Assembly: GCA_029582155.1 (NCBI GenBank)
Contig: CM055908.1
Coordinates: 19,817,406 to 19,881,405 of the forward strand
Length of the DNA stretch: 64,000 nucleotides
Source of the DNA: Panopea generosa
Lineage: Eukaryota > Mollusca > Bivalvia > Adapedonta > Hiatellidae
Direction: 5' to 3'
The translations under genes were made by a program, and so were the position numbers. Shown here one piece after another: positions 45,001 through 64,000 of this stretch; position 1 is the first letter of the stretch; the number at the start of each line of letters is the position of its first letter. A model generated the notes under the pieces. That model searched no databases and had not been told where the DNA came from. It worked only from the letters and a program-made list of their open reading frames with translations.

Positions 45001-48000
45001 CCTTTACTCCATAGATACACGTTTTCCCGCACCAATCACAAAAGGCCTTTGAAAACAGTGCAGGAAGAGTTCAGATTGCTCGTAACGAGCAATCTGAACA
45101 CTTCCTGCACTGTTTTCCACTCTGTCAGTTAATGTAAACATAATTCATCCAATATTTCAAAAGCCGTCTATATTAGGTGTCCAAAGGTGTCTATATTAGA
45201 GGTGTCCAAAGGCGTCTATATTAGAGGTTTCAAAGGCGTCTATATTAGAGGTGTCCAAAGGCATCTATATGAAGTAAAGGGTTAAATACTGAAGCACTGA
45301 CTGTTCATGACAGACAAGATCCTTTTAACAGACCTGGCCAAATGTCTTATTCCCAAAAACTAGAGAAGCAAATATTTTTATTTTTTGACAGAAGTTTTCA
45401 CTTGATAGGGTTTCTTTTGTTTAAATTAACCATTGGTTACATAGGAAAACCATTGGAAACAGAAAGCTTTTCATATTGTCCTTATATATTGATCTTATGT
45501 CAGACAACTCGTAACATGTTATTTGGGCCGTTAACTGTTTTGAGCTCTTGGTCATAGTCTCCATGAAATTTTATAATTGTAAGAATGACAAAAGTTGAAT
45601 AAGCAATGGTATTATTAGAAACAAGTTTTTTTGGCTTTAAAATAGAACAATCCAGGATGCATTTTAATGTCAAAATGTTTTTACGTTTTCATCAAAGTAA
45701 AATCTTGCTGAGTTTACAATAAAACATATAAATAAATATACATTCCAGTGTTGTGTTGAATCTATCTTTCAAAAGCCTAAAAATCAAATCATATGGGGAA
45801 AGTTTGCATGGCAGTGGGCATATTTTCTCTTTACCGAGGTTAGGTATTTCTAGTTCATCCTCAGGGATGTGAAATATTCTCATGCTGTGATGTTGGAACT
45901 ATCCATGACATGAAGTATGAAATATACTGAAAGGATAAAGAATTGCTTCATGAATTTCAGAGATTCACAATTTATCAATCTATTGTTAGCAATACTAACA
46001 GTTCTAGAATATGTATGCAAAGGTATTTCATTTATGATCTTGTCATTAATAATTATCATGATAACAAACTCTTTAATGAAATACTTTCACAAACATATTC
46101 TAAAACTATAGAAATATTGTTCGCTGTGAAATTCACCTTGGCATTTCATTATCCTTTCAGTATAATATATGGCTTAATATATTTGCTTGGTAAGCGATAA
46201 AAAGAATCTTATAACATTTTGGTTTATTTGTTTTTTTTGTAGAAAATTCTATCCCTTGGGATAGCTGTTTTCATGGGAGCTCAGCAAAGCTCGTTCCCAC
46301 CAATATTCCTCCTGACAGATTTTTTTATCCAAACCTCAAAGCTTCTTATGATATTGATTCAAGGACCTTAAACGGAATTTATCAGGATTTATATATATAT
46401 ATATATTTAAACCTCTCTCAATATTATATTAGGAATTTCCTAACTTGGGCTATGCGCAAAGGTTAGACTAAAACAGATTTCCCACTTAAAAGTGCAACAT
46501 ATTTTGTGTCGTATTAAATGAGACACGTGATTTTTTTGTTTTGATTTCAAGTAAATTCCTTTTACACAGGCGCACCACAAAATCTGAACAGGCAAACACG
46601 TTTTTAGTAGAGATATAATGCATTTTGATAACATATAGGAGTTAAGGTGGGAGGGGTTGTATGCCGTTTTTTTTTTTTTTAAAAAGTAGTTGCACCATTG
46701 ATACAGGTTAACACATAGTAAAAAGTGTTTCATCTTAGAGTCCAAATGATGTCAAGCAGTAGATAAATGCTGTTGATTTTTAGAATAGGTACTTCGTTCT
46801 AAGTTTACCACTCCATCCTATATATCGACTTTATGACGTTTTGGTGGATGGTCATACCAAATTGTTCGTATTTGATTTATTAATGATAATGAGATGCTTC
46901 TGATCCATTTTGATAATTATTTTATTTGTTAAGACGTTTTTAGTGTGTTTTCCTGAAATACTCCCTTTTAGACCATATTTAATGAAACGCTCTACAATGG
47001 TTTAAAGGATAAATTAAATAATAATATGAAGTAAGTCATCAACTTGTGATTAATATATATGTTTTCTCTGTTAATATACATGATAAGTGCTAGTACAAAA
47101 CATCTGAGTGGAAAATAGTTCAGTAAATTTTACTTTCTTTTATCATTCTCAGAAAGAGGACAATCCAAAGTCATCGAATACAGTCAAGAAACCAAAGACA
47201 ATGAAGGTACATATGATGATTTAATTAGTTACCAAAATACGAGCTCTCATTACAATTATAAAGATACAGTATGAATTTACAAGGGTTAATACTGTAATGG
47301 TACAGAGCATGACTATGTTATTTCATGGGAACTGAAAGAGTTTTTTCTCTCTTATGTTCTTTCTCCAAATGGATCATATCCCAAAATTGATAATAAATAG
47401 GGACCAATCTGGTTTTATCTCCGGAAGATATATGGGGGGAAATAATATCTCATATGATATTACGCAATATACTGAGGTTAATGATATTCCAGGTCTTATT
47501 TTATTAATAGATTTTGAAAAAGCATTCGATTCCGTATCTTGGAGTTTTATCTTTACAGTATTGAATTTTTTTAAGTTTGGTGAGTCATTAATAACTTGGA
47601 TAAAAGTTTTATATAAAAATGCAATGTTAGCAGTTAAACAAACTGGTAAACTTTCTAATTTTTTTAATATAGGGCATGGCTGTCGTCATGGCGATCCACT
47701 GTCTCCATATATATATTTATTTTATGTGCCCAGATACTAGCCATAAATATCTGAAATAATACATCTATAAAAGGCATTTCAATTAATAATCAGGAAATTA
47801 AGCTGTCTTAATATGCCGATGATACATCAATAGTCTTGGATGGATCTGAGTTATCACTTAATGCTTCTCTTTCAGAACTATCTAAATATGCAAAACATTC
47901 TGGTCTAAATATCAATTTTTATAAGACACAAATGGTATGGATAGGGAGGAAAAAATACAGTACAGACACTATAAAGATAAAGTGGAAATTAGTTTGGGGA

Positions 48001-51000
48001 AAAAATAACTTTAAACTGTTGTGGTTCACTTTTCATGTTAACCTAGATAAAATGATTGACTTAAATTATAAAGAAAAACTAGATAAAATAGATAATTTGA
48101 TAAAAATTTGGAAGAGACGATACCTAACTCAATGAGGATAAATAACGGTTAATATTAAATTTCTACTCCTGTCCAGATTAAATCACCTTTTTATTTCTCT
48201 ACAAAATCCCAATAAAAACATTATAACAAACCTAAACAATATTTTCTATAACTTTCTATGGGAAGGTCCAGCAAATATCAAAAGAACAATTATTGTAAAA
48301 CAATACATAGATGGTGGGCTTAGAATGATTAACATAATGCCTTTATACAAAGTCTAAAATTAACATGGATAAGAAGAGCATTTACAAATAACAGTTCATG
48401 GAAATTACTGTTAGTCAGTTGTATTAATTTAAATAAACTAGTTAATTTTGGACAAGGGTATGGTGAATCTATTATAAATACATTATCAAACAAATTCTGG
48501 AAAGATGTCTTAATATCTTATGTACAACTGCTTAAAGTTTGTGTTCCCCAAGGGGCAGAAGAATTGTTATCAAGTCCTTTATATTATAATAATATTCTTA
48601 CTGTACAGTCACATATTTTCTATAAACTGTGGTATGAAAAAGGGTTAATATATGTAAATGACATGTACAAAGACAATGGGTCATGGCACTCTATGCAAGA
48701 GCTTCAAGACATATATGGAATTAAAACAAATTTCCTAACATACAATGGGCTGATTGCAGCCATAAATCCATTTAAATCATTAGTATAAAATATTTTAGAC
48801 TTTAAAAAAATGAAATATTCTTTCAGACCAAATTATTGTTGGCTATTTTTCAAAAGTTCTAAAGGCTGTTATAAATTTTATGAACTGCTTAATAAAAATA
48901 ATGAAATCCCAACATCAAAAAATAAATGAGAAGAACTCTACAATATTGAAGACAACACATGGAAAGAGATATATTACCGTACTCACTATTTAAGTTTGCA
49001 ATAGCTTCTCATTTACAGTGGTTCCAGGTTAGAATTAACCATAGACTATTGCCAACAAAAGCTTTTTTATATAAAATTAAAGTTAAAGAAAGTCCACTTT
49101 CAGTTCCTGTCAACAGGTAGAGACAATTACGCATATGCTGTGGACCTGTCCTGAAACTAAAATATTTCTTCAAGAAATAAAAGAAACCCTACTGTCGAAA
49201 AATATACCATATATATTCAATGAAGAAGAGATCATTTTTAATATTGGAAAGCATTTCTGTGTGGCAGACCTGTTTTTTTTTCACTCCAAATTAAGTATTA
49301 TATATTCTCCTCAAAAAGATTAGATATCCCTCTATCCATAAATGCTTTTAAAAATAAGGTAGCTTGGGCTTTTAAAACATAAACACCTTGCAATAAAAAA
49401 CAACAACTTACAATCTTTCAAAAAAGATTGGCAACCAATTATGCAAGCAGTTAGTTAATTATTTTTCTGTAAGATGTACAGATACTTGGCCAGTTAGTCA
49501 GAAATGATACCATAAAATAACCTAGTTTAAAGTAATAAAAAAAATATAATGTATTCAAAACCTACACAGACACATGTATATATTTTTTTCTTTTATCCAT
49601 TATCTTCTCTCATCGACAAATATGTCAAGCTATAAAAAAATGAAGAAGAGAAGTTTTACCTGAAAACTCATTTATATTTCCCTTTGCCTTATTTTTATTA
49701 TATTAAAGAAATACAGAAATGTAGAAACAAAGATAAAATACATGTAAAAAAATATATTGTTTGATATTAAGTTAACTGAAGGTCTTATTTTTAGAATATT
49801 AAGGACATTTGCACATTACAAATACATACTCCAGTAAACAGTTTTTTTAAGTGGGGTGTTAAATGCATTGAAAAGAGTCTTAGCTGCTTGTGCCAGAGGT
49901 CCCAGGTTTGATCCTCTACTTTACCAGATAGATTCGTGGGGGGGGGGGGGGGGGGGGGGGGGGAATGCTCAATATTGGTTCTATTCAAGAAATGGAATCA
50001 AGACTGAATGTTCTGACTTGAATTAACCATGATTACTGGTATGTGAACTTCAACAGAACTCACCTTTGATCTTTTTCCATAAACAATATTTAATCATCAG
50101 TAATTAGTCCTGCTTTGTTCTTTACTTTGAAACATAGTATTAAAAAAATCAAAGAAGAAGCATAATTTACTTCAAAAATACTGGCTTCTGACCTACAATT
50201 TATGTGGTCTTTCTGAAATAATAAATTGACTGCTTCATAATGTTTCTTTGATTTTCTGAAAATGATGGCACAGATTGACTTGGTATTTACATCACCAATC
50301 CTTCAAATATAGGTTCATGTATGCTTCATAGTAACTTGTTATTTTATTTACATGTATACTAATTATGTTTTCCGTTACATTTATCAAACTTGATATTTAT
50401 TTGTAACAATTCTTTGTTGAAAGGTTATTTTTGAAAAAATACTAAAAACAAGTTATAATTTATGGTTTATGAGCTGTGTTTTTAACTTATTCCTGGTACT
50501 GGTATTGGTTTTTGAATTAATTTTTCTCCCTTCAAAATGATTAAACTAAGTTACTATTAAAATATAAACATTTACTTTTTTGCAGGACATAGTTTTCATG
50601 AAGGCTTTTGACTTATATGCAAAGGATAGCGGAAATATACACATACAAAGGTAAGGAAGTGTGCATATGAATATAGTGAAGGATTTGCTAAGCATCTACT
50701 ATACCTGTAACAAGTGCAGCAGGTTGGTTGTTCAGATGAAAAAAAAATGAGGTACTAATTTTTTGTTTTGAACAATTGTTTAACAATAAATGTCAGCAAT
50801 GGTTTCTGAAGTTATATTGATTTGAGCCCGTGTGGTTCCAGCTAAGAATAGAATCACTGCCAATCTCTGCAGAGGGGTAGGAATCCTCGGAATGGGTGTC
50901 ATGTTCATTTTATCATTTTTTGTCATGTTCACTATTGTGGTTAAATTATCAACCCCTGTGTTATTTCAGGGAGCCATATGAGTGATGGCAAGAATTGGAC

Positions 51001-51388: not shown

Positions 51389-51459
<71 letters not shown>

Positions 51460-60400: not shown

Positions 60401-63400
60401 CTTTGTAACTCGTATCAGATTAACAAACATGAAATGTCTTGTTTTGCATCATTCTAATGTCATGAAAAACTACTTTTAGAATCAAATTGATTTCTCACCA
60501 ATTAATAGTAATTTGAGTTTCAGACTCTAAAATTGACTTGTCCAGCAACATTTAACTGGAAAATTTCACTTGTCCCTCTGGAAATCAACATGGTGCAGGA
60601 CAACAGAACAATCGTTAATTTCTAATCCTGGATTGGGTCATCAATCACTTTTCTAATTTAAAAAAAAAAAGCCCCAGAATCTGTTTAGAAAACATTTCTC
60701 AGGAATAGTTTTGTAGCTGCTGTTATCTTTCAATTTCTACTTGATGTTATAAAGTTCAGAAGACAGTATCAGTAATTTAAAATTGGTTTTCAATTATGGA
60801 CTTTTTTTTATATCTTTAAATGTTTACAAAACTATTGATTTTGAAAATAAATGTTGTTAAGATCAAACTCATTATATTTTGCAATGAATTTCAAATTTAA
60901 TTAATATGCAGATTTAATAGATGTGTGCCGAGTTAGTGACGGTGAAGTAAATGTATTACAGGAATTGAAAATCTTTGATAGACACTACCATAATAGGAAA
61001 TCTGTCTTAAGAATAAAGTTTAGCTGTAATCAATATTGATAATAACTGGAGATGTACTTTCTTCTCTTTAATCAAATAAAACTTGTCATAGACTTTTATT
61101 TTTTTTTTATAAACTATTCTACTAGTAAGGTCTGGCATACAATGTTAATGATGTTACATCAACTTACATTCCTAATTGAAAGTGACATGTTTGACATGGC
61201 TGCATGGCTTGTTATAAATGTTAATAAAGCCATCATTTACAAATTACAGACAATGGTTTACAAGTGATAGCAAGGATAGAAATATTTTACAGAATCTTAG
61301 ATGAACTTTATACATATAAACTGTTTGGTGGAGATGTTTTTAACATATTGTCTTCTCATATGTATATAAGTACATGTACAATAATTATGTATATGTTTTG
61401 AAACTTTTGGTAATAAAATGTTTGCCGAATCCATTCAGAGAATGGTGATTGGGTGTATAGAGTTACTATGATATTGACAAATAGTTTGTTTGCTTTAAAG
61501 CCACCAACCCAGTAACTATATCATGCTACAGAATATTTTGAGATGAGATCTTTTTGGTAAAGCAAAGTAGGAAAATAGAATTTAAGAAATCTACATTGGC
61601 TTCTGTATTGAAAGAGTGGAGCATTTGTGTCTCATGGATATATGTGTAGCTTTATCACAAGCTAGTTGTCTTGTATTCTATATACTGATTCAATTTCTTG
61701 TGTACTGATACAAATTCTAGATTATATCTAATTTGGTAATGTATCATCTTCTTCTGTAGCCGGGTTCGATTAGCTCAGTCAGTTACGTGTCTGACTATCA
61801 ATCCAGGGGTCGTGAGTTCGAATCCCCTGCCCGACAACAGTCTCCGTGATGATTAATATGCGACATTGTATCTCATTATCATTCATCTCTTACCACTGAT
61901 TCAAATGGGAAAGTTATCAGTTCCTTGCGGAGATGGGGTTGCTCGAGTACTGGTTAATCCCAGGAAACATCGGTTAGGTTAACTGATCGTCTGTTAGCCC
62001 TCGATGGCATAAAATGACGCTAAATATTCAATCAATCAATCAATCAATCTTCTCCTGTATGTTTAACTTTCCTATGTTTTCCTACCAATAACAAAATAAT
62101 ATTATTTTTCAGACTGGAAAACTGTTACCTGTGTTCAGTGAACTCGAGATATTGGCAATGATGGTGGCCTGTCTTTGTCATGATCTGGATCATAGAGGAA
62201 CAAACAACGCATTCCAAGTCAAGTATGTAGTGAGAATACATATTTGTTAATTTGATAGACCAATCATTCAGAGTCAAGTATGTAGTGAGAATACATATTT
62301 GTTAATTTGATAGACCAATCATTTAGAGTCAAGTATGTAGTGAGAATATATATTTGTTAATTTGATAGACCAATCATTCAGAGTCAAGTATGTAGTGAGA
62401 ATACATATTTGTTAATTTGATAGACCAATCATTCAGAGTCAAGTATGTAGTGAGAATACATATTTGTTAATTTGATAGACCAATCATTCAGAGTCAAGTA
62501 TGTAGTGAGAATACATATTTGTTAATTTGATAGACCAATCATTCAGAGTCAAGTATGTAGTGAGAATATATATTTGTTAATTGGACAGACCCATCATTCC
62601 AAGTCAAGTATGTAGAGAGTACATATTTGTTAATTGGATAGATGGATCCTTCCAAATTAAGTATGTGGTCAGGACATGCCTTTAACTTGTAAGGCCCATC
62701 ATTTCAAGGCAAGTATGTCGTCAGGACATGCCTTTGTGAACTTGTGAGGCTCATCATTTCAAGTCAAGTATATAGTCAGGACAACCTTTGTTAACTCTTT
62801 AGGCCCATCAATCCAAGTCAAGTAGGCAGTCAGGACACCCTTTGTTAACTCTTAGGCCTATCAATCCAAGTTAAGTATGTAGTCAGGACATCCTTTGTTA
62901 ACTTGTAAGGCTCATCATTACAAGTCAAGTATGCAGTCAGGACATCCTTTGTTAACTCTTAGGCCTATCAATCCAAGTTAAGTATGTAGTCAGGACATCC
63001 TCTGTTAACTTGTGAGGCCCATCATTCCAAGTCAAGTATGTAGTCAGGACATCCTTTGTTAGCTTGTTAGGCCCATCATTCCAAGTTAAGTATGTAGTCA
63101 GGACATCTTTTGTTAACTTGTTAGGCCCATCATTCCAAGTTAAGTATGTAGTCAGGACATCCTTTGTTAGCTTGTTAGGCCCATCATTCCAAGTTAAGTA
63201 TGTAGTCAGGACATCTTTTGTTAACTTGTTAAGCCCATCATTCCAAGTCAAGTATGTAGTCAGGGCATCTTTTGTTAACTTGTTAGGCCCATCATTCCAA
63301 GTTAAGTAGTAGTCAGGACATCCTTTGTTAACTCTTTAGGCCCATTAATCCAAGTCAAGTATGCAGTCAGGACACCGTTTGTTAACATGTTAGGCCCAAA

Positions 63401-64000
63401 GTATGTAGTCAGGACATCCTTTGTTAACTTGTAAGGCCCATCATTCCAAGTTAAGTATGTAGTCAGGACATCCTTTGTTAACTTGTTAGGCCCATAGTAT
63501 GTAGTCAGGACATCCTTTGTTAACTTGTAAGGCCAAACATTCCAAGTCAAGTATGTAGTCAGGACATCCTTTGTTTACTTGTTAGGCCCATCATTTCAAA
63601 TCAAGTATGTAGTCAGGACATCCTTTGTTAACTTGTTGGGCCCATCATTCCAAGTCAAGTATGTAGTCAGGACATGCCTTCATTAAATTGTAAGGCCCAA
63701 CATTCCAATTCAAGTATGCAGTCAAAACATCCTTTGTTAACATCCAAAGCCAATTAATCCAAGTTATGTATGATAATGTAGTCAGGACATCCCTTTGTTA
63801 TCTTGACATCTAGTCTGGTCAAGCTCAGGGAATTTTGTGTCAGCAAACCGTGAATATGTTCTTTTAAAAAACCTTTAAGAAAGGCTTGATTTATATCTAT
63901 ACAGTTCCACATAATAATAATTTCAAGACAGTTTGTGTCATAGTTGTGTTGTCTGTTATAGGGTTGTATCACCACTAGCAATGTTGTACAGCACATCAGT
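23516..64000 (+). CDS. PDE11: PDE11-like 3',5'-cyclic nucleotide phosphodiesterase (14 exons, 3' end outside window)
   Basis: A split gene whose exons join in frame: 23516-24082, 29522-29680, 33713-33802, 34603-34743, 36071-36172, 47153-47206, 50586-50650, 53171-53285, 54200-54343, 55982-56125, 57238-57384, 57966-58073, 62113-62222, 63962->64000. The product hydrolyses cAMP/cGMP in the cytosol. Residues 1-93 are a leader with a basic RKRS site (73-76) that fits a PKA/PKG consensus. GAF-A spans about 94-265 and GAF-B about 273-510; the catalytic domain starts near 530. HNWRH (595-599) supplies the general-acid His and a metal His; HD of [10 protein letters not shown] (635-636) supplies metal ligands. 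[16 protein letters not shown] and [10 protein letters not shown] resemble PDE11 more than PDE5/6. About 661 residues are visible. The remaining catalytic part, including the last metal Asp and the glutamine switch, is off the right edge. Confidence 0.93.
24140..24265 (-). mobile_element. tRNA-derived SINE fragment
   Basis: On the minus strand this reads GAGTGTCGGCCACTTACGCC then TTGCGGGTTTAATCCCCCGG, with a B-box-like GGGTTTAATCCC. It resembles a tRNA-derived SINE head. The tail and target-site duplication were not found, so this is a partial, diverged copy. Confidence 0.5.
24425..26485. repeat. Composite intronic repeat with two tandem arrays and a poly-C tract
   Basis: Left part: GCTCATCTCAGCAAAGCTCA, a C20 tract at about 24570-24589, then CCGTCCGTCCGTCC. 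Three units of about 170 bp follow, starting at GATTTCGTTTCCGGCCTGTA (about 24645, 24820, 24987), ending at a GGGGGGCATGTGACA motif (25093). Right part (25320-26400): three to four diverged units of about 340 bp with AAGAACCGACAA...GTTTATATTTGGTATAAAT...GGGGACTTTGATTTTTACAT. The block closes with GAGCGACTTAGGCCCATTTG and GCCCTCTTGTTTC. Non-coding. An abundant repeat of bivalve type is likely, from general resemblance only. Confidence 0.75.
26650..27082 (-). repeat. Dispersed repeat, copy A (inverted partner at 50.8 kb)
   Basis: About 430 bp, matching 50825-51255 in reverse orientation. Shared blocks include AGAATAGAATCACTGCC, CTCTGCAGAGGGGTAGGAAT, GGGTGTCATGTTCATTTTAT, AACTCTGCAGTTCTGCAG and TCGAATAACCTATAATGTGT. 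A 69-codon minus-strand frame (27068-26859) with one hydrophobic segment is open here but broken in copy B, so it is probably not a gene. The end carries GAATGAATGAATGAATA. Element class unknown. Confidence 0.85.
27083..29521. other. Rest of PDE intron 1, no gene seen
   Basis: AT-rich intron. A diverged tRNA-like stretch near 27810-27880 (GGTGCAGTGGTATGGTTG, GTTGTAGGTTCAGCCTA) may be an old SINE head. A 141-codon minus-strand frame at 29006-28581 has no recognisable domain and no support as a gene. Confidence 0.5.
29522..29680 (+). CDS. PDE11: PDE11-like exon 2: second half of GAF-A (residues 190-242)
   Basis: Acceptor TTTTTTTCTAG, donor GAG|GTAAAA, phase 0 at both ends, 53 codons. It starts [20 protein letters not shown] and continues CMP...[10 protein letters not shown], then F-x3-D (FEEQD). 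This is the NK..F..xD element near the cyclic-nucleotide pocket of PDE GAF domains. The usual following Glu is one residue further on (DVE). Confidence 0.93.
30481..31050 (+). pseudogene. C2H2 zinc-finger pseudogene in PDE intron 2
   Basis: An intronless plus-strand stretch encodes pieces of at least five C2H2 fingers. These are CDICAYTS...[10 protein letters not shown] (about 30571-30633); a second finger in a shifted frame ([17 protein letters not shown], about 30660-30712); [18 protein letters not shown] (30757-30810); [18 protein letters not shown] (about 30827-30886); and [10 protein letters not shown]...RKHELAMH plus [10 protein letters not shown] (to 31040). It needs at least two frame changes and ends at TAG 31048. 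A retrocopy or part of a decayed mobile gene is likely. A TTTCTAG acceptor-like site stands right before ATGGATGAATC, so an abandoned exon is an alternative. Confidence 0.65.
31950..32600 (-). pseudogene. Decayed coding segment, unrecognised
   Basis: The minus strand carries consecutive protein-like segments in different frames: [20 protein letters not shown] (about 32580-32520) through [17 protein letters not shown]; then, shifted, [20 protein letters not shown] with an acidic SDDDEDE run, ending ...HVEMIPSV (32168); then [20 protein letters not shown] and [16 protein letters not shown] (about 32120-32017). The frames stay protein-like despite stops, so this was once coding sequence. I cannot name the protein. 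It lies opposite and 0.9 kb downstream of the zinc-finger pseudogene and may belong to the same inserted unit. Confidence 0.45.
33713..33802 (+). CDS. PDE11: PDE11-like exon 3: end of GAF-A and linker (residues 243-272)
   Basis: Acceptor TTCTTTTTGCAG, donor AGG|GTAACC, 30 codons, phase 0. It encodes [20 protein letters not shown] followed by VQEYKRNR, the last helix of GAF-A leading into the long connecting helix to GAF-B. This helix contributes to dimerisation in related enzymes. Confidence 0.92.
34603..34743 (+). CDS. PDE11: PDE11-like exon 4: start of GAF-B (residues 273-319)
   Basis: Acceptor AACTTCTAG, donor GGA|GTAAGT, 47 codons, phase 0. It contains [15 protein letters not shown] and [17 protein letters not shown], the opening helix and first strand of GAF-B as in PDE11 and PDE5. 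The next GAF-B strand, expected directly after, is delayed by the sequence of exons 5 and 6. Confidence 0.93.
35694..36006 (-). mobile_element. tRNA-derived SINE with 10-bp target-site duplication (SINE-A)
   Basis: The minus strand begins with a tRNA-like head: A box TGGTCTAGTGGTAGAGC and B box GGGTTCGATCCC, with CACAT in the anticodon loop (a CAC, valine-like, origin is possible). It ends in CTAAACACCATACAACTACAAC. Perfect TTTCAGAATT duplications flank it (35684-35693 and 36007-36016). The body is shared with the SINE at 53685-53998. One body segment (35801-35843) matches the 40-bp minisatellite unit at the start of the window. The SINE ends 64 bp before exon 5. Confidence 0.93.
36071..36172 (+). 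CDS. PDE11: PDE11-like exon 5, probable GAF-B insertion loop (residues 320-353)
   Basis: A 34-codon open stretch framed by acceptor GATGTAG and donor GAG|GTAATT, phase 0 at both ends, so it joins exon 4 without shift. It encodes a hydrophilic segment ([20 protein letters not shown], then EDDKTYGE). Typical PDE11 GAF-B domains go from the CSVYLIDD strand to the next strand with a shorter loop. Exons 5 and 6 together would insert about 52 residues. It could be an alternatively used exon. The call rests on splice signals and frame, not family similarity. Confidence 0.62.
36455..36905. repeat. Degenerate GGTCACTGTTACTTTGAGATCACATAG tandem repeat
   Basis: Diverged tandem units alternating ACTTTTAGAT.GCATAGTTCAA and TTTGAGATCACATAGTTCAAG, separated by AAGGTCACTGT-type links. 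The last two units (about 36814-36894) are a nearly perfect 40-bp duplication containing ACACATAGTTCTAGGTAAAG. Confidence 0.88.
36906..38876. other. PDE intron 5, left part, nothing identified
   Basis: AT-rich intronic sequence. No transposon ends, RNA gene or additional exon could be supported. A CTGTACCTAGTGTTTTG-like phrase is repeated three times at 38312-38365. Confidence 0.45.
38877..38921 (+). CDS. Candidate 45-nt micro-exon of the PDE gene
   Basis: Framed by a good acceptor (TTGTTAATTTTCAG) and donor (AAG|GTAAAA). It is 45 nt, phase 0 at both ends, with no stop; it would encode [15 protein letters not shown] between exons 5 and 6. No family similarity supports it, and such framed stretches can arise by chance in 11 kb of intron, so it is kept as a low-confidence candidate. 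Confidence 0.22.
38942..39117. mobile_element. Second TTAA MITE family (TTAACCCTTAGCTTGCT)
   Basis: 176 bp including both TTAA. Starts TTAACCCTTAGCTTGCTGG and ends TTAGCAAGTTAAGGGTTAA, a 13-bp inverted repeat with one mismatch, flanked by TTAA. Termini CCCTTA.. again fit a piggyBac-type non-autonomous element. The interior is unrelated to the five palindromic MITEs. Confidence 0.82.
39485..39790. repeat. Tandem dimer of a 170-bp dispersed repeat
   Basis: Two units share GTTAATTTTTCAATGAGTTATGG-type starts (39508 and 39666), then CCCTTTGAA, then TCTGCAACCATTGGCTGGAA with TTCAATGGAACTTCACAA. The phrases echo the tandem array at 54.4-55.4 kb (CTACAACC..TTGGAATTTTATGAAACTT), so they are probably related families. 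Confidence 0.75.
39800..44110. other. PDE intron 5, central part, nothing identified
   Basis: No exon, RNA gene or transposon end could be supported. Two related phrases at 43855 and 43995 (TTTTTACAGGAGTTGTGGCC / TTTACAGGAGTTATGGGCC) suggest an old dimeric repeat of the 'gagttatggccc' type. Confidence 0.45.
44120..44400 (-). mobile_element. Likely LINE 3' end (same family as 10.9 kb)
   Basis: TTTATTTAGTAATATAGGCC and GCTCAAAATACAATAAATA align with the 3' part of the fragment at 10.88-11.5 kb. No coding stretch remains. The relationship is judged by eye over about 80 bp. Confidence 0.45.
44996..45285 (-). mobile_element. Palindromic TTAA MITE, copy 3 (expanded)
   Basis: TTAACCCTTTACTCCATAGA ... 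TATGAAGTAAAGGGTTAA, flanked by TTAA. The central hairpin is nearly perfect (45051-45117, arms of about 33 nt: CAGTGCAGGAAGAGTTCAGA and its complement around CGTAACG). Next to one end, a 25-bp unit, GTCTATATTAGAGGTGTCCA with AAGGC, is repeated five times, making this the longest copy (290 bp). Confidence 0.93.
45286..47152. other. PDE intron 5, right part, nothing identified
   Basis: A-rich and T-rich intron with a (TA)n run at 46392-46408. Short open frames on both strands have no recognisable domain or splice framing. No gene or transposon end seen. Confidence 0.45.
47153..47206 (+). CDS. PDE11: PDE11-like exon 6, lysine-rich loop in GAF-B (residues 354-371)
   Basis: Acceptor TTTTATCATTCTCAG, donor AAG|GTACAT, 54 nt, phase 0. 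It encodes [18 protein letters not shown], a flexible, basic segment placed just before the GAF-B strand of exon 7. Like exon 5 it has no clear counterpart in the family as I know it, and it may be alternatively spliced. Confidence 0.65.
47350..49460 (+). mobile_element. LINE with reverse transcriptase core, sense orientation in PDE intron 6
   Basis: Readable reverse transcriptase blocks in order: [15 protein letters not shown] (about 47400), [16 protein letters not shown] (47492-47541), [13 protein letters not shown] (47673-47711), the catalytic YADD (47812-47823), and [20 protein letters not shown] (about 47882-47941). Then come a connector with NKFWKDVL and [33 protein letters not shown] (about 49017-49075) and [10 protein letters not shown] (49126-49155). 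Several stops and frameshifts break it; the endonuclease part is missing (5' truncation). The block order resembles L1/Tx1-type elements in animals. It begins about 150 bp after exon 6 and is the same family as the fossil at 15.84 kb. Confidence 0.88.
49461..50585. other. PDE intron 6, right part
   Basis: Probable LINE 3' flank, then a diverged tRNA-like stretch at about 49870-49925 (TCTTAGCTGCTTGTGCCAGA with B-box-like CAGGTTTGATCCTC), directly followed by the poly-G tract. No exon seen before 50586. Confidence 0.45.
49938..49963. repeat. Poly-G tract (26 G)
   Basis: Uninterrupted run of 26 G after GATTCGT. It may be over- or under-called in the assembly. Confidence 0.9.
50586..50650 (+). 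CDS. PDE11: PDE11-like exon 7: GAF-B strand (residues 372-393)
   Basis: Acceptor TTACTTTTTTGCAG, donor AAG|GTAAGG, 65 nt, leaving two bases of a serine codon (phase 2). It encodes [20 protein letters not shown], corresponding to the V-F-x-FDL strand of GAF-B. Confidence 0.88.
50825..51255 (+). repeat. Dispersed repeat, copy B (inverted partner of 26.65-27.08 kb)
   Basis: Same blocks as copy A in the opposite orientation, from AGCCCGTGTGGTTCCAGCTA to ACCCTATTCATTCAT. The frame open in copy A is stopped here at CAT ATG AGT (GCC ATA TGA), which argues against a protein role. Length about 430 bp. Confidence 0.85.
51391..51458. repeat. Poly-C tract (68 C)
   Basis: Uninterrupted run of 68 C between CCTCGCTCAA and GTCCAATTCAG. 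Very long for a homopolymer; the true length is uncertain in any assembly. Confidence 0.9.
51459..53170. other. PDE intron 7, right part, nothing firm
   Basis: No exon or RNA gene seen. At 52190-52480 phrases such as GTTGATTTTTTGACTAAGTT and ATGGCCATTTGCATGTTCTG suggest a diverged copy of the 'gagttatggccctttg' repeat family seen at 39.5 and 54.5 kb. Confidence 0.45.
53171..53285 (+). CDS. PDE11: PDE11-like exon 8: GAF-B middle (residues 393-431)
   Basis: Acceptor TTATTTTTCAG, donor CCA|GTAAGT. It completes the serine codon begun in exon 7 and ends in phase 0. It encodes ...[20 protein letters not shown] and [10 protein letters not shown], equivalent to the lid and 'nISDayqDpRF' part of [17 protein letters not shown] replaces the usual DAYxDxRF wording. 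Confidence 0.92.
53685..53998 (+). mobile_element. tRNA-derived SINE with 15-bp target-site duplication (SINE-B)
   Basis: Head with A box TGGTCTAGTGGTAGAGTG and B box GGGTTCAATCCC, then a body (CTTCCTCACTTGACGCTCAG, GTTCTAGGTCTGGTC) and tail CTAAACACCATACAACAACA. Perfect TCATTTTGAACAGAG duplications flank it (53670-53684, 53999-54013), pointing to a fairly recent insertion. Same family as SINE-A (35694-36006) in the opposite orientation. Not a functional tRNA: the acceptor stem does not pair and there is no gene-like end. Confidence 0.95.
54200..54343 (+). CDS. PDE11: PDE11-like exon 9: GAF-B C-terminal half (residues 432-479)
   Basis: Acceptor TATATTTTCAG, donor GAG|GTATGT, 48 codons, phase 0. 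It encodes [20 protein letters not shown] then GVTQLINKL...[10 protein letters not shown], the second-GAF version of the RS-LC-P and NK..F..xD signature also found in exon 2. Exons 2 and 9 are clear internal paralogues at the protein level. Confidence 0.94.
54420..55465. repeat. Dispersed element with six 142-158-bp tandem units
   Basis: Starts at TGCTCCCCCCAAACGGGGAA and closes near CACTTGGGGGAGCA, so the ends are inverted. In between are about six units with CAAATTCTTGTCCGGGCTAT, TTCTCTACAACC, GGAATTTTATGAAACTTGCT and AGGATGCATCATTACCAAGT. Unit starts fall at about 54480, 54622, 54778, 54934, 55089 and 55240. The open frames on the minus strand are produced by the repeat. Non-autonomous element, class not determined. 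Confidence 0.85.
55982..56125 (+). CDS. PDE11: PDE11-like exon 10: GAF-B end and connecting helix (residues 480-527)
   Basis: Acceptor GTTTAATTTCAG, donor GTG|GTATAA, 48 codons, phase 0. It encodes [20 protein letters not shown] then [20 protein letters not shown], matching the long helix from GAF-B to the catalytic domain, where related enzymes have 'AKQ...LEVLSYHA'. Confidence 0.94.
56633..56848 (+). mobile_element. Palindromic TTAA MITE, copy 4
   Basis: TTAACTCTTTACTTCATAAA ... ATGGAGTAAAGGGTTAA, flanked by TTAA. The central hairpin is intact (CAGTGCAAGAAGTGTTCAGA ... with its complement around TGTTATGAG). One arm of the terminal repeat has a C-to-T change. Confidence 0.92.
57238..57384 (+). 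CDS. PDE11: PDE11-like exon 11: entry of catalytic domain (residues 528-576)
   Basis: Acceptor ATTCTTTTTTCAG, donor GAT|GTAAGA, 49 codons, phase 0. It encodes [20 protein letters not shown] followed by [17 protein letters not shown], the first catalytic-domain helices (family pattern: F-x-D...M F x E L x L v x k F k I). Confidence 0.94.
57575..57760. repeat. 25-bp minisatellite in PDE intron 11
   Basis: About seven units with exact 25-bp spacing of ACCATACAA/G (57618, 57643, 57668, 57693, 57718). Consensus is close to GGTGGCACCATACAA then CACAATCTCA. Confidence 0.93.
57966..58073 (+). CDS. PDE11: PDE11-like exon 12: catalytic YHNWRHAFN motif (residues 577-612)
   Basis: Acceptor TTATAACATAG, donor TTT|GTGAGT, 36 codons, phase 0. 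It encodes [20 protein letters not shown] then [14 protein letters not shown]. By comparison with PDE5, His595 (YHNW) is the general acid and His599 (WRH) a metal ligand. Both are present, so an active enzyme is expected. Confidence 0.95.
58229..58520. repeat. Dispersed repeat, copy 2 (first copy at 7.37 kb)
   Basis: AACAATTAAGAAACCCAAAG through AACAAATAAGAGCG, same orientation as 7368-7690. A short internal duplication (GACATCATTTGACTGAC-like) distinguishes it. No coding capacity. Confidence 0.8.
58748..59040. repeat. Dispersed 'TTAGCTCCCCTGGACGAAGTC' repeat
   Basis: Starts AGCTCCCCTGGACGAAGTCC AAGGAGAGCT, a short inverted repeat. It continues with GCGTTGTCGTTGGCGGTGGC, ATCTATGCAACCACTCATTG, GAATGAAACTTTGCATGTGT and CAGTTATGGCCCTTTTTGGA, ending near TCTGACAACTCTTGT. 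The 141-codon plus frame crossing it (58706-59131) is a repeat product. Resembles repeats I associate with bivalve introns; not checked by search. Confidence 0.65.
59919..60129 (-). mobile_element. Palindromic TTAA MITE, copy 5
   Basis: TTAACCCTTTACTCCATAGA ... TATGAAGTAAAGAGTTAA, flanked by TTAA. One hairpin arm is deleted (GAAAACAAGCAATCTGAACA). Three 25-bp GTCTATATTAGAAGTGTTCA-type units lie near one end. Same orientation as copy 3. Confidence 0.92.
60130..61740. other. PDE intron 12, nothing identified
   Basis: AT-rich intron. Open frames are short, with no domain and no splice framing. No transposon ends found. Confidence 0.45.
61759..62046 (+). mobile_element. tRNA-derived SINE of a different family (SINE-C)
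   Basis: Head with A box TTAGCTCAGTCAGTTACG and B box GAGTTCGAATCCCC. Body with TCCTTGCGGAGATGGGGTTG and CTCGAGTACTGGTTAATCCC. Tail GACGCTAAATATTCAATC followed by (AATC)n. Flanked by ATCTTCTTCTGTA (61746-61758) and ATCTTCTCCTGTA (62047-62059), a 13-bp duplication with one change. It ends 53-54 bp before exon 13. Not a functional tRNA gene: the acceptor stem is unpaired. Confidence 0.9.
62113..62222 (+). CDS. PDE11: PDE11-like exon 13: [10 protein letters not shown] metal site (residues 613-649)
   Basis: Acceptor TTATTTTTCAG, donor CAA|GTATGT, 110 nt, leaving two bases of a lysine codon. It encodes [20 protein letters not shown] then [11 protein letters not shown]. His635 and Asp636 are metal ligands by comparison with PDE5. 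The exon is squeezed between SINE-C on its left and a tandem array on its right that copies its own last 13 nt and donor. Intron retention would hit a TAA at 62247-62249. Confidence 0.95.
62208..63800 (+). repeat. 54-55-bp tandem array built from the exon 13 splice donor
   Basis: About 29 units. The first six or seven have a 55-bp period (donor copies at 62223, 62278, 62333, ...) and read TCAAGTATGTAGTGAGAATA then CATATTTGTTAATTTGATAG. The later ones have a 54-bp period (for example 63090, 63144) and read CAAGTCAAGTATGTAGTCAG then GACATCCTTTGTTAACTTGT. Each unit carries the last exon bases (ATTCCAAGTCAA) plus GTATGTAGT, so the array grew from the exon/intron junction. The long open frames on both strands here come from 54 being a multiple of three. 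Confidence 0.95.
63962..64000 (+). CDS. PDE11: PDE11-like exon 14, partial (residues 649->661)
   Basis: Acceptor TTGTCTGTTATAG. Its first G completes the lysine codon of exon 13, and then [12 protein letters not shown] follows, matching the PDE11 segment after FQxK (SPLAQLYSTS-like in insect Pde11). The exon runs off the right edge. Confidence 0.9.

Follow-up and report, generated by a model that had tools for sequence, protein, structure and literature searches.

A minisatellite array built from an exon's own 5' splice site occupies most of a phosphodiesterase intron in Panopea generosa

The window analysed here is a 64,000-nt stretch of the Panopea generosa genome, and positions are counted from its first nucleotide. 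On the plus strand, a coding exon of 110 nt at 62113-62222 encodes a stretch of a phosphodiesterase (PDE) catalytic domain (Pfam PF00233, E 6e-13) and ends in phase 2, with its last codon split. Its matches in the PDB are PDE2, PDE6 and PDE5 chains. An exon further upstream matches the GAF region of PDE5, indicating that the gene is a GAF-type cyclic-nucleotide phosphodiesterase, which we take to be PDE11-like. The authentic 5' splice site, AA/GTATGT (62223-62228, donor GT at 62223), was inferred from homology and from the reading frame, which continues into the next exon. The beginning of that exon lies at 63962-64000; the protein goes on past the window end as MEHHHFDH, and MEHHHFDHSIMIL is the continuation of this exon beyond the window. 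The intron is 1,739 nt long, and 91% of it (62223-63805) is a tandem array. The 156 nt outside the array (63806-63961) carry the acceptor AG at 63960-63961.

Several other features were seen in the window. A tRNA-like promoter sequence at approximately 61760-61837 has ATCA repeats downstream of it, at approximately 62026-62050, just before the exon. By eye this looks like a SINE; an ARAGORN scan of the window detected no tRNA gene. Positions 1-1559 hold 39 copies of a 40-bp repeat, in which both strands have long open frames, the open frames at 47336-49320 resemble a LINE reverse transcriptase by eye, and 51391-51458 is a run of 68 consecutive C.

For the intronic array, TRF reported a period of 54 with 28.8 copies at 62210-63741, as well as a 55-bp sub-array at 62210-62642. 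Wrap-around alignment divided 62210-63805 into 30 units. The units derive from the exon end (13 nt, CATTCCAAGTCAA) and the 5' splice site. The first unit begins inside the exon and has the exon's final 13 nt (62210-62222) as its start. When the exon end was compared base by base with unit 8, all 13 nt were alike, after which the match fell away. A 21-mer across the junction, searched with up to three mismatches, had 25 matches in the window, all 25 of them inside the array; the same search of 100 shuffles gave 0 matches. The preliminary description of this DNA had proposed that the exon's own 5' splice site was amplified in tandem, and this is borne out, with the array ending near 63805 and not at 63800 as first given. 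It had also recognised two period classes. Units 1-8 (62210-62647) form the 55-bp class, with seven units of 55 bp and unit 8 of 53 bp, and units 9-30 (62648-63805) form the 54-bp class, with 22 units of 51-55 bp (mostly 52-55), apart from four short ones of 47 or 49 bp. Mean unit identity was 0.93 among units 1-8 and 0.83 among units 9-29, compared with 0.72 between both sets. The two classes thus appear to have been homogenised separately, in line with two expansion phases.

A search of the genome (1,474,161,289 bases in 39 contigs) was made with a 24-mer across the junction, allowing up to two mismatches. It returned 15 matches, and all 15 fall inside the array, which points to a local origin. 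Local amplification of the exon's own junction, as had been suggested, is further upheld by the unit alignment, which starts within the exon. The preliminary description had named insertion of the repeat as a rival; the likeness of an inserted repeat family to the exon end would then be due to chance or conversion. No point in support of this rival was found. Such a repeat would have to be reconciled with the purely local 24-mer matches, with the 13 nt of conserved coding sequence common to exon and units, and with the same geometry at other exons, where it is built from different units. We regard insertion as very improbable.

The exon and its intron position seem to be older than the array. 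The peptide AFQVK stands at the exon end in 4 of 14 relatives (14 among 33 matches), with near variants in others, and a donor-like site of identical codon position and phase is present in two paralogues in the genome (FQIK, FQQK). The TRF arrays nearest downstream of the two paralogue exon matches are 4,616 and 479 nt away. These observations bear on the idea that the intron itself is new, made by tandem duplication of exon sequence containing AG/GT sites. Intron gain by tandem genomic duplication is described in PMC4974935 and PMC3443670, and it resembles the present case in that a tandem duplication spans a splice signal; the model set out in PMC3087553 also allows arrays of boundary repeats to yield introns. 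Here, however, the intron position predates the array: the paralogues share it, phase included, in the absence of a TRF array at the exon end, and the 156 nt on the acceptor side are non-array sequence. Intron gain of this kind is therefore disfavoured for the array intron, to the point that we give it hardly any credence.

Homogenisation may have reached the exon itself. A stretch of 107 nt that starts at 62217, 6 nt inside the exon, recurs without change from 62382 and again from 62437, yet at two positions where units 2-7 read AG the exon has retained CA. We read this combination as homogenisation extending up to the exon, with selection protecting the exon copy. A feature of the mirages described below is an edge unit spared homogenisation; here, unit 1 equals later units from 62217 onwards, and only its first exon bases differ.

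We next considered the splice potential of the units. With a donor scoring matrix, a GT scoring above 2 was present at the donor place in 29 of the 30 units, so that nearly every unit is a potential donor, as had been claimed. The authentic donor 9-mer, CAAGTATGT, occurs in 14 of the 30, the authentic one included, and no unit donor outscored the authentic donor on this matrix. Predicted pairing with the U1 end gave a different order: seven unit donors of sequence TAAGTATGT reached -5.0, against -4.0 for the authentic site, and some other GT sites were also better. Because these seven are predicted to pair better with U1 than the authentic donor, some leakage to other donors is plausible.

The consequence of such leakage is set by an in-frame TAA, which had been noted at 62247 for the first units and which lies at 62248-62250. 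This stop precedes unit donors 2-30, and every one of them would give the same truncated product, ending at the TAA. Truncation inside the catalytic domain, as anticipated by the preliminary description, is thus predicted for all of these donors. Upstream of the stop there is a weaker-scoring GT at 62230, splicing from which would lengthen the exon by 7 nt and alter the reading frame. The same stop removes the proposed row of in-frame 18-codon cassettes: translation of such cassettes from exon 62113-62222 is ruled out, since the TAA intervenes before the open 54-bp frame. Of the 6 frames of the 54-bp consensus, 2 are open, this one and one on the minus strand, and openness is for this reason no sign of coding.

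A row of competing donors that all lead to one stop could act as a splicing dial, in which part of the transcripts would be diverted to the TAA at 62248, with the number of units governing how much productive mRNA is made. The occurrence of the authentic 9-mer in nearly half of the units, the shared stop and the stronger predicted U1 pairing of seven unit donors are as expected for such a device, and human IFI6 takes downstream repeat units as donors according to PMC4526556. Stronger conservation of the splice signals would speak for function. In the window array alone, the donor core AAGTATGTAGT required 9 parsimony steps in 11 columns, or 0.82 per column compared with 2.58 elsewhere (P 0.0008, free column permutation). 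This apparent selection on the donor core disappeared when the signal was ranked against contiguous windows in six arrays, leaving out the authentic unit and every unit in which gaps exceeded 25%. The signal ranked 12/54, 16/63, 36/49, 34/41, 10/44 and 6/75, and over the six arrays conservation of the splice signals did not significantly exceed that of the remaining unit sequence (Fisher P 0.26). In amphioxus, moreover, splicing is reported to be undisturbed by comparable arrays (PMC3087553, PMC3902484). We consider the dial unlikely. Since the splice signals are not conserved beyond chance, neutral tolerance of the arrays is the best reading of the sequences and is preferred over a regulatory role.

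Arrays of the same geometry recur elsewhere in the genome. We found them at 8 of 108 sampled exon ends (6 of 76 PDE ends and 2 of 32 myosin ends), four at donors and four at acceptors, and the stretch of exon common to exon and array varied from about 9 to 51 nt. The most extensive case lies on the minus strand of contig 17 (approximately 10208975-10215600), where a 123-nt exon of a presumably PDE9-like gene is amplified at both ends. On its acceptor side, about 108 aligned 49-bp units (approximately 5 kb) contain the acceptor and about 30 nt of the exon start. On its donor side, about 51 nt of exon end are present 19 times, counting the authentic copy, and GTA comes next in 17 of the 19; the downstream intron of 1,359 nt consists largely of these donor copies. 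Use of the second donor of this gene would add 21 codons in frame, with a stop in unit 3. Another gene that we assume to be PDE9-like, on contig 1, has a 2.1-copy donor repeat, at a junction that agrees with the beginning of its next exon. Two further PDE exons have acceptor arrays, one on contig 2 with 10 aligned units and one on contig 13 with 2 copies. Junction arrays extend beyond phosphodiesterases, since they were also found at two myosin exons, one on contig 14 with a donor array (41-bp unit, TRF 5.2 copies) and one on contig 2 with an acceptor array (44-bp unit, TRF 5.2 copies).

To judge these counts, the density of arrays has to be taken into account, as minisatellites (period at least 10) account for 16.7% of the PDE loci (218 kb) and for 6.1% of the myosin stretches. 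The PDE sample comprised 38 exons from 39 Pfam hits, the remaining hit being excluded because it was a copy within the contig-17 array; the myosin sample was the first 16 of 81 hits. Exon ends were taken as Pfam match ends and were checked base by base where an array overlapped. The exon that follows the contig-17 array was left uncounted, its TRF array overlapping the Pfam match yet ending 48 nt before the exon. In a comparison set, an array edge lay within 62 nt outside the match end at 3 PDE ends and 1 myosin end. Null rates, with junction arrays included, were derived from the 80 merged arrays counted in 218,010 nt and the 7 counted in 16,257 nt. If the window's own end is set aside, an array was present at 7 of 107 ends, compared with 2.56 expected for a 62-nt zone (P 0.016); zone widths between 50 and 70 nt gave expected counts of 2.07-2.89. 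Counting that end as well gives 8 of 108 against 2.58 expected, and myosin alone gave 2 of 32 against 0.85 (P 0.21). The roughly 3-fold excess over the density null is graded as suggestive, because the PDE part of the sample shares its family with the finding, and the count of junction arrays is largely what would be expected from a genome so rich in minisatellites. A broader proposal, that junctions in this genome are preferred seeds of minisatellites, that introns grow from copies of their own donors and acceptors, and that the length of such arrays varies among individuals and tunes productive splicing of genes like the phosphodiesterases, seems to us improbable.

Our preferred account is as follows. 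Some 55 bp, taking in the exon's final 13 nt together with the first part of the intron, would have been duplicated locally in tandem and have founded a minisatellite, which may then have grown to 30 units by slippage or unequal exchange. The exon copy would be held by purifying selection, while the remaining copies drift and are homogenised in blocks. The first donor, having exon context, is most probably the one used in splicing; a message spliced from a later unit donor would run into the TAA at 62248 and be truncated and prone to nonsense-mediated decay. Overall, a locally founded mirage minisatellite that is neutrally tolerated while its first donor is used is, in our judgement, likely.

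A row of near-identical splice sites that all face a single partner site amounts to a natural experiment on site choice by the spliceosome, and the arrays in paralogues permit in-frame and truncating versions to be compared. A human example is IFI6 (6-16), whose minisatellite reportedly gives multiple splice donors (Turri et al. 1995). In both IFI6 and the window array, repeat units 3' of the exon end offer donors, which are potential donors in the window. The downstream donors of IFI6 are used in mRNA, as stated in PMC4526556, whereas unit donors 2-30 of the window array lie beyond a stop. As the TAA at 62248-62250 precedes these donors, none of them would lengthen the protein in frame; the repeat units of IFI6 are in frame.

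Arrays at exon boundaries are a known but little-studied oddity. Among titles and abstract openings, no molluscan case of a boundary minisatellite was recognised; abalone TSSK1-like and Conus papers mention a minisatellite. In amphioxus, tandem repeats spanning exon-intron boundaries, termed mirages, are described in PMC3087553 and PMC3902484 for Adh3, the globins BflGb6 and BflGb9, and TnC, with similar repeats in PGBD5. They occur at both 5' and 3' boundaries and are unstable in length. The window array resembles them in spanning a boundary, with 13 nt of exon and a donor heading its 55- and 54-bp units, in repeating the splice signal in many units (by score and by 9-mer, as given above), and in being local by the genome search. 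On sequence grounds it therefore has the structural features of a mirage minisatellite. The two differ in scale and setting: the two BflGb6 haplotypes have 3 and 6 units, and the window array has 30, in a mollusc, filling most of an intron. Myosin comparison agrees with a molluscan source: the eight best PDB matches of a muscle-myosin exon are 3i5f, from squid, and 1dfk, 1dfl, 1b7t, 1kk7, 1qvi, 2ec6 and 2os8, from scallop, at 153-167.5 bits, followed by 3jbh at 134.7 and Myosin-7 chains at no more than 126.2. For a second, more conserved exon these eight again rank first, by a small margin (110.5-111.6 against 109.6), so that a mollusc is more probable than a lancelet. With about 108 acceptor and 19 donor copies at the single exon on contig 17, the phenomenon known from amphioxus is extended to a mollusc and on a large scale.
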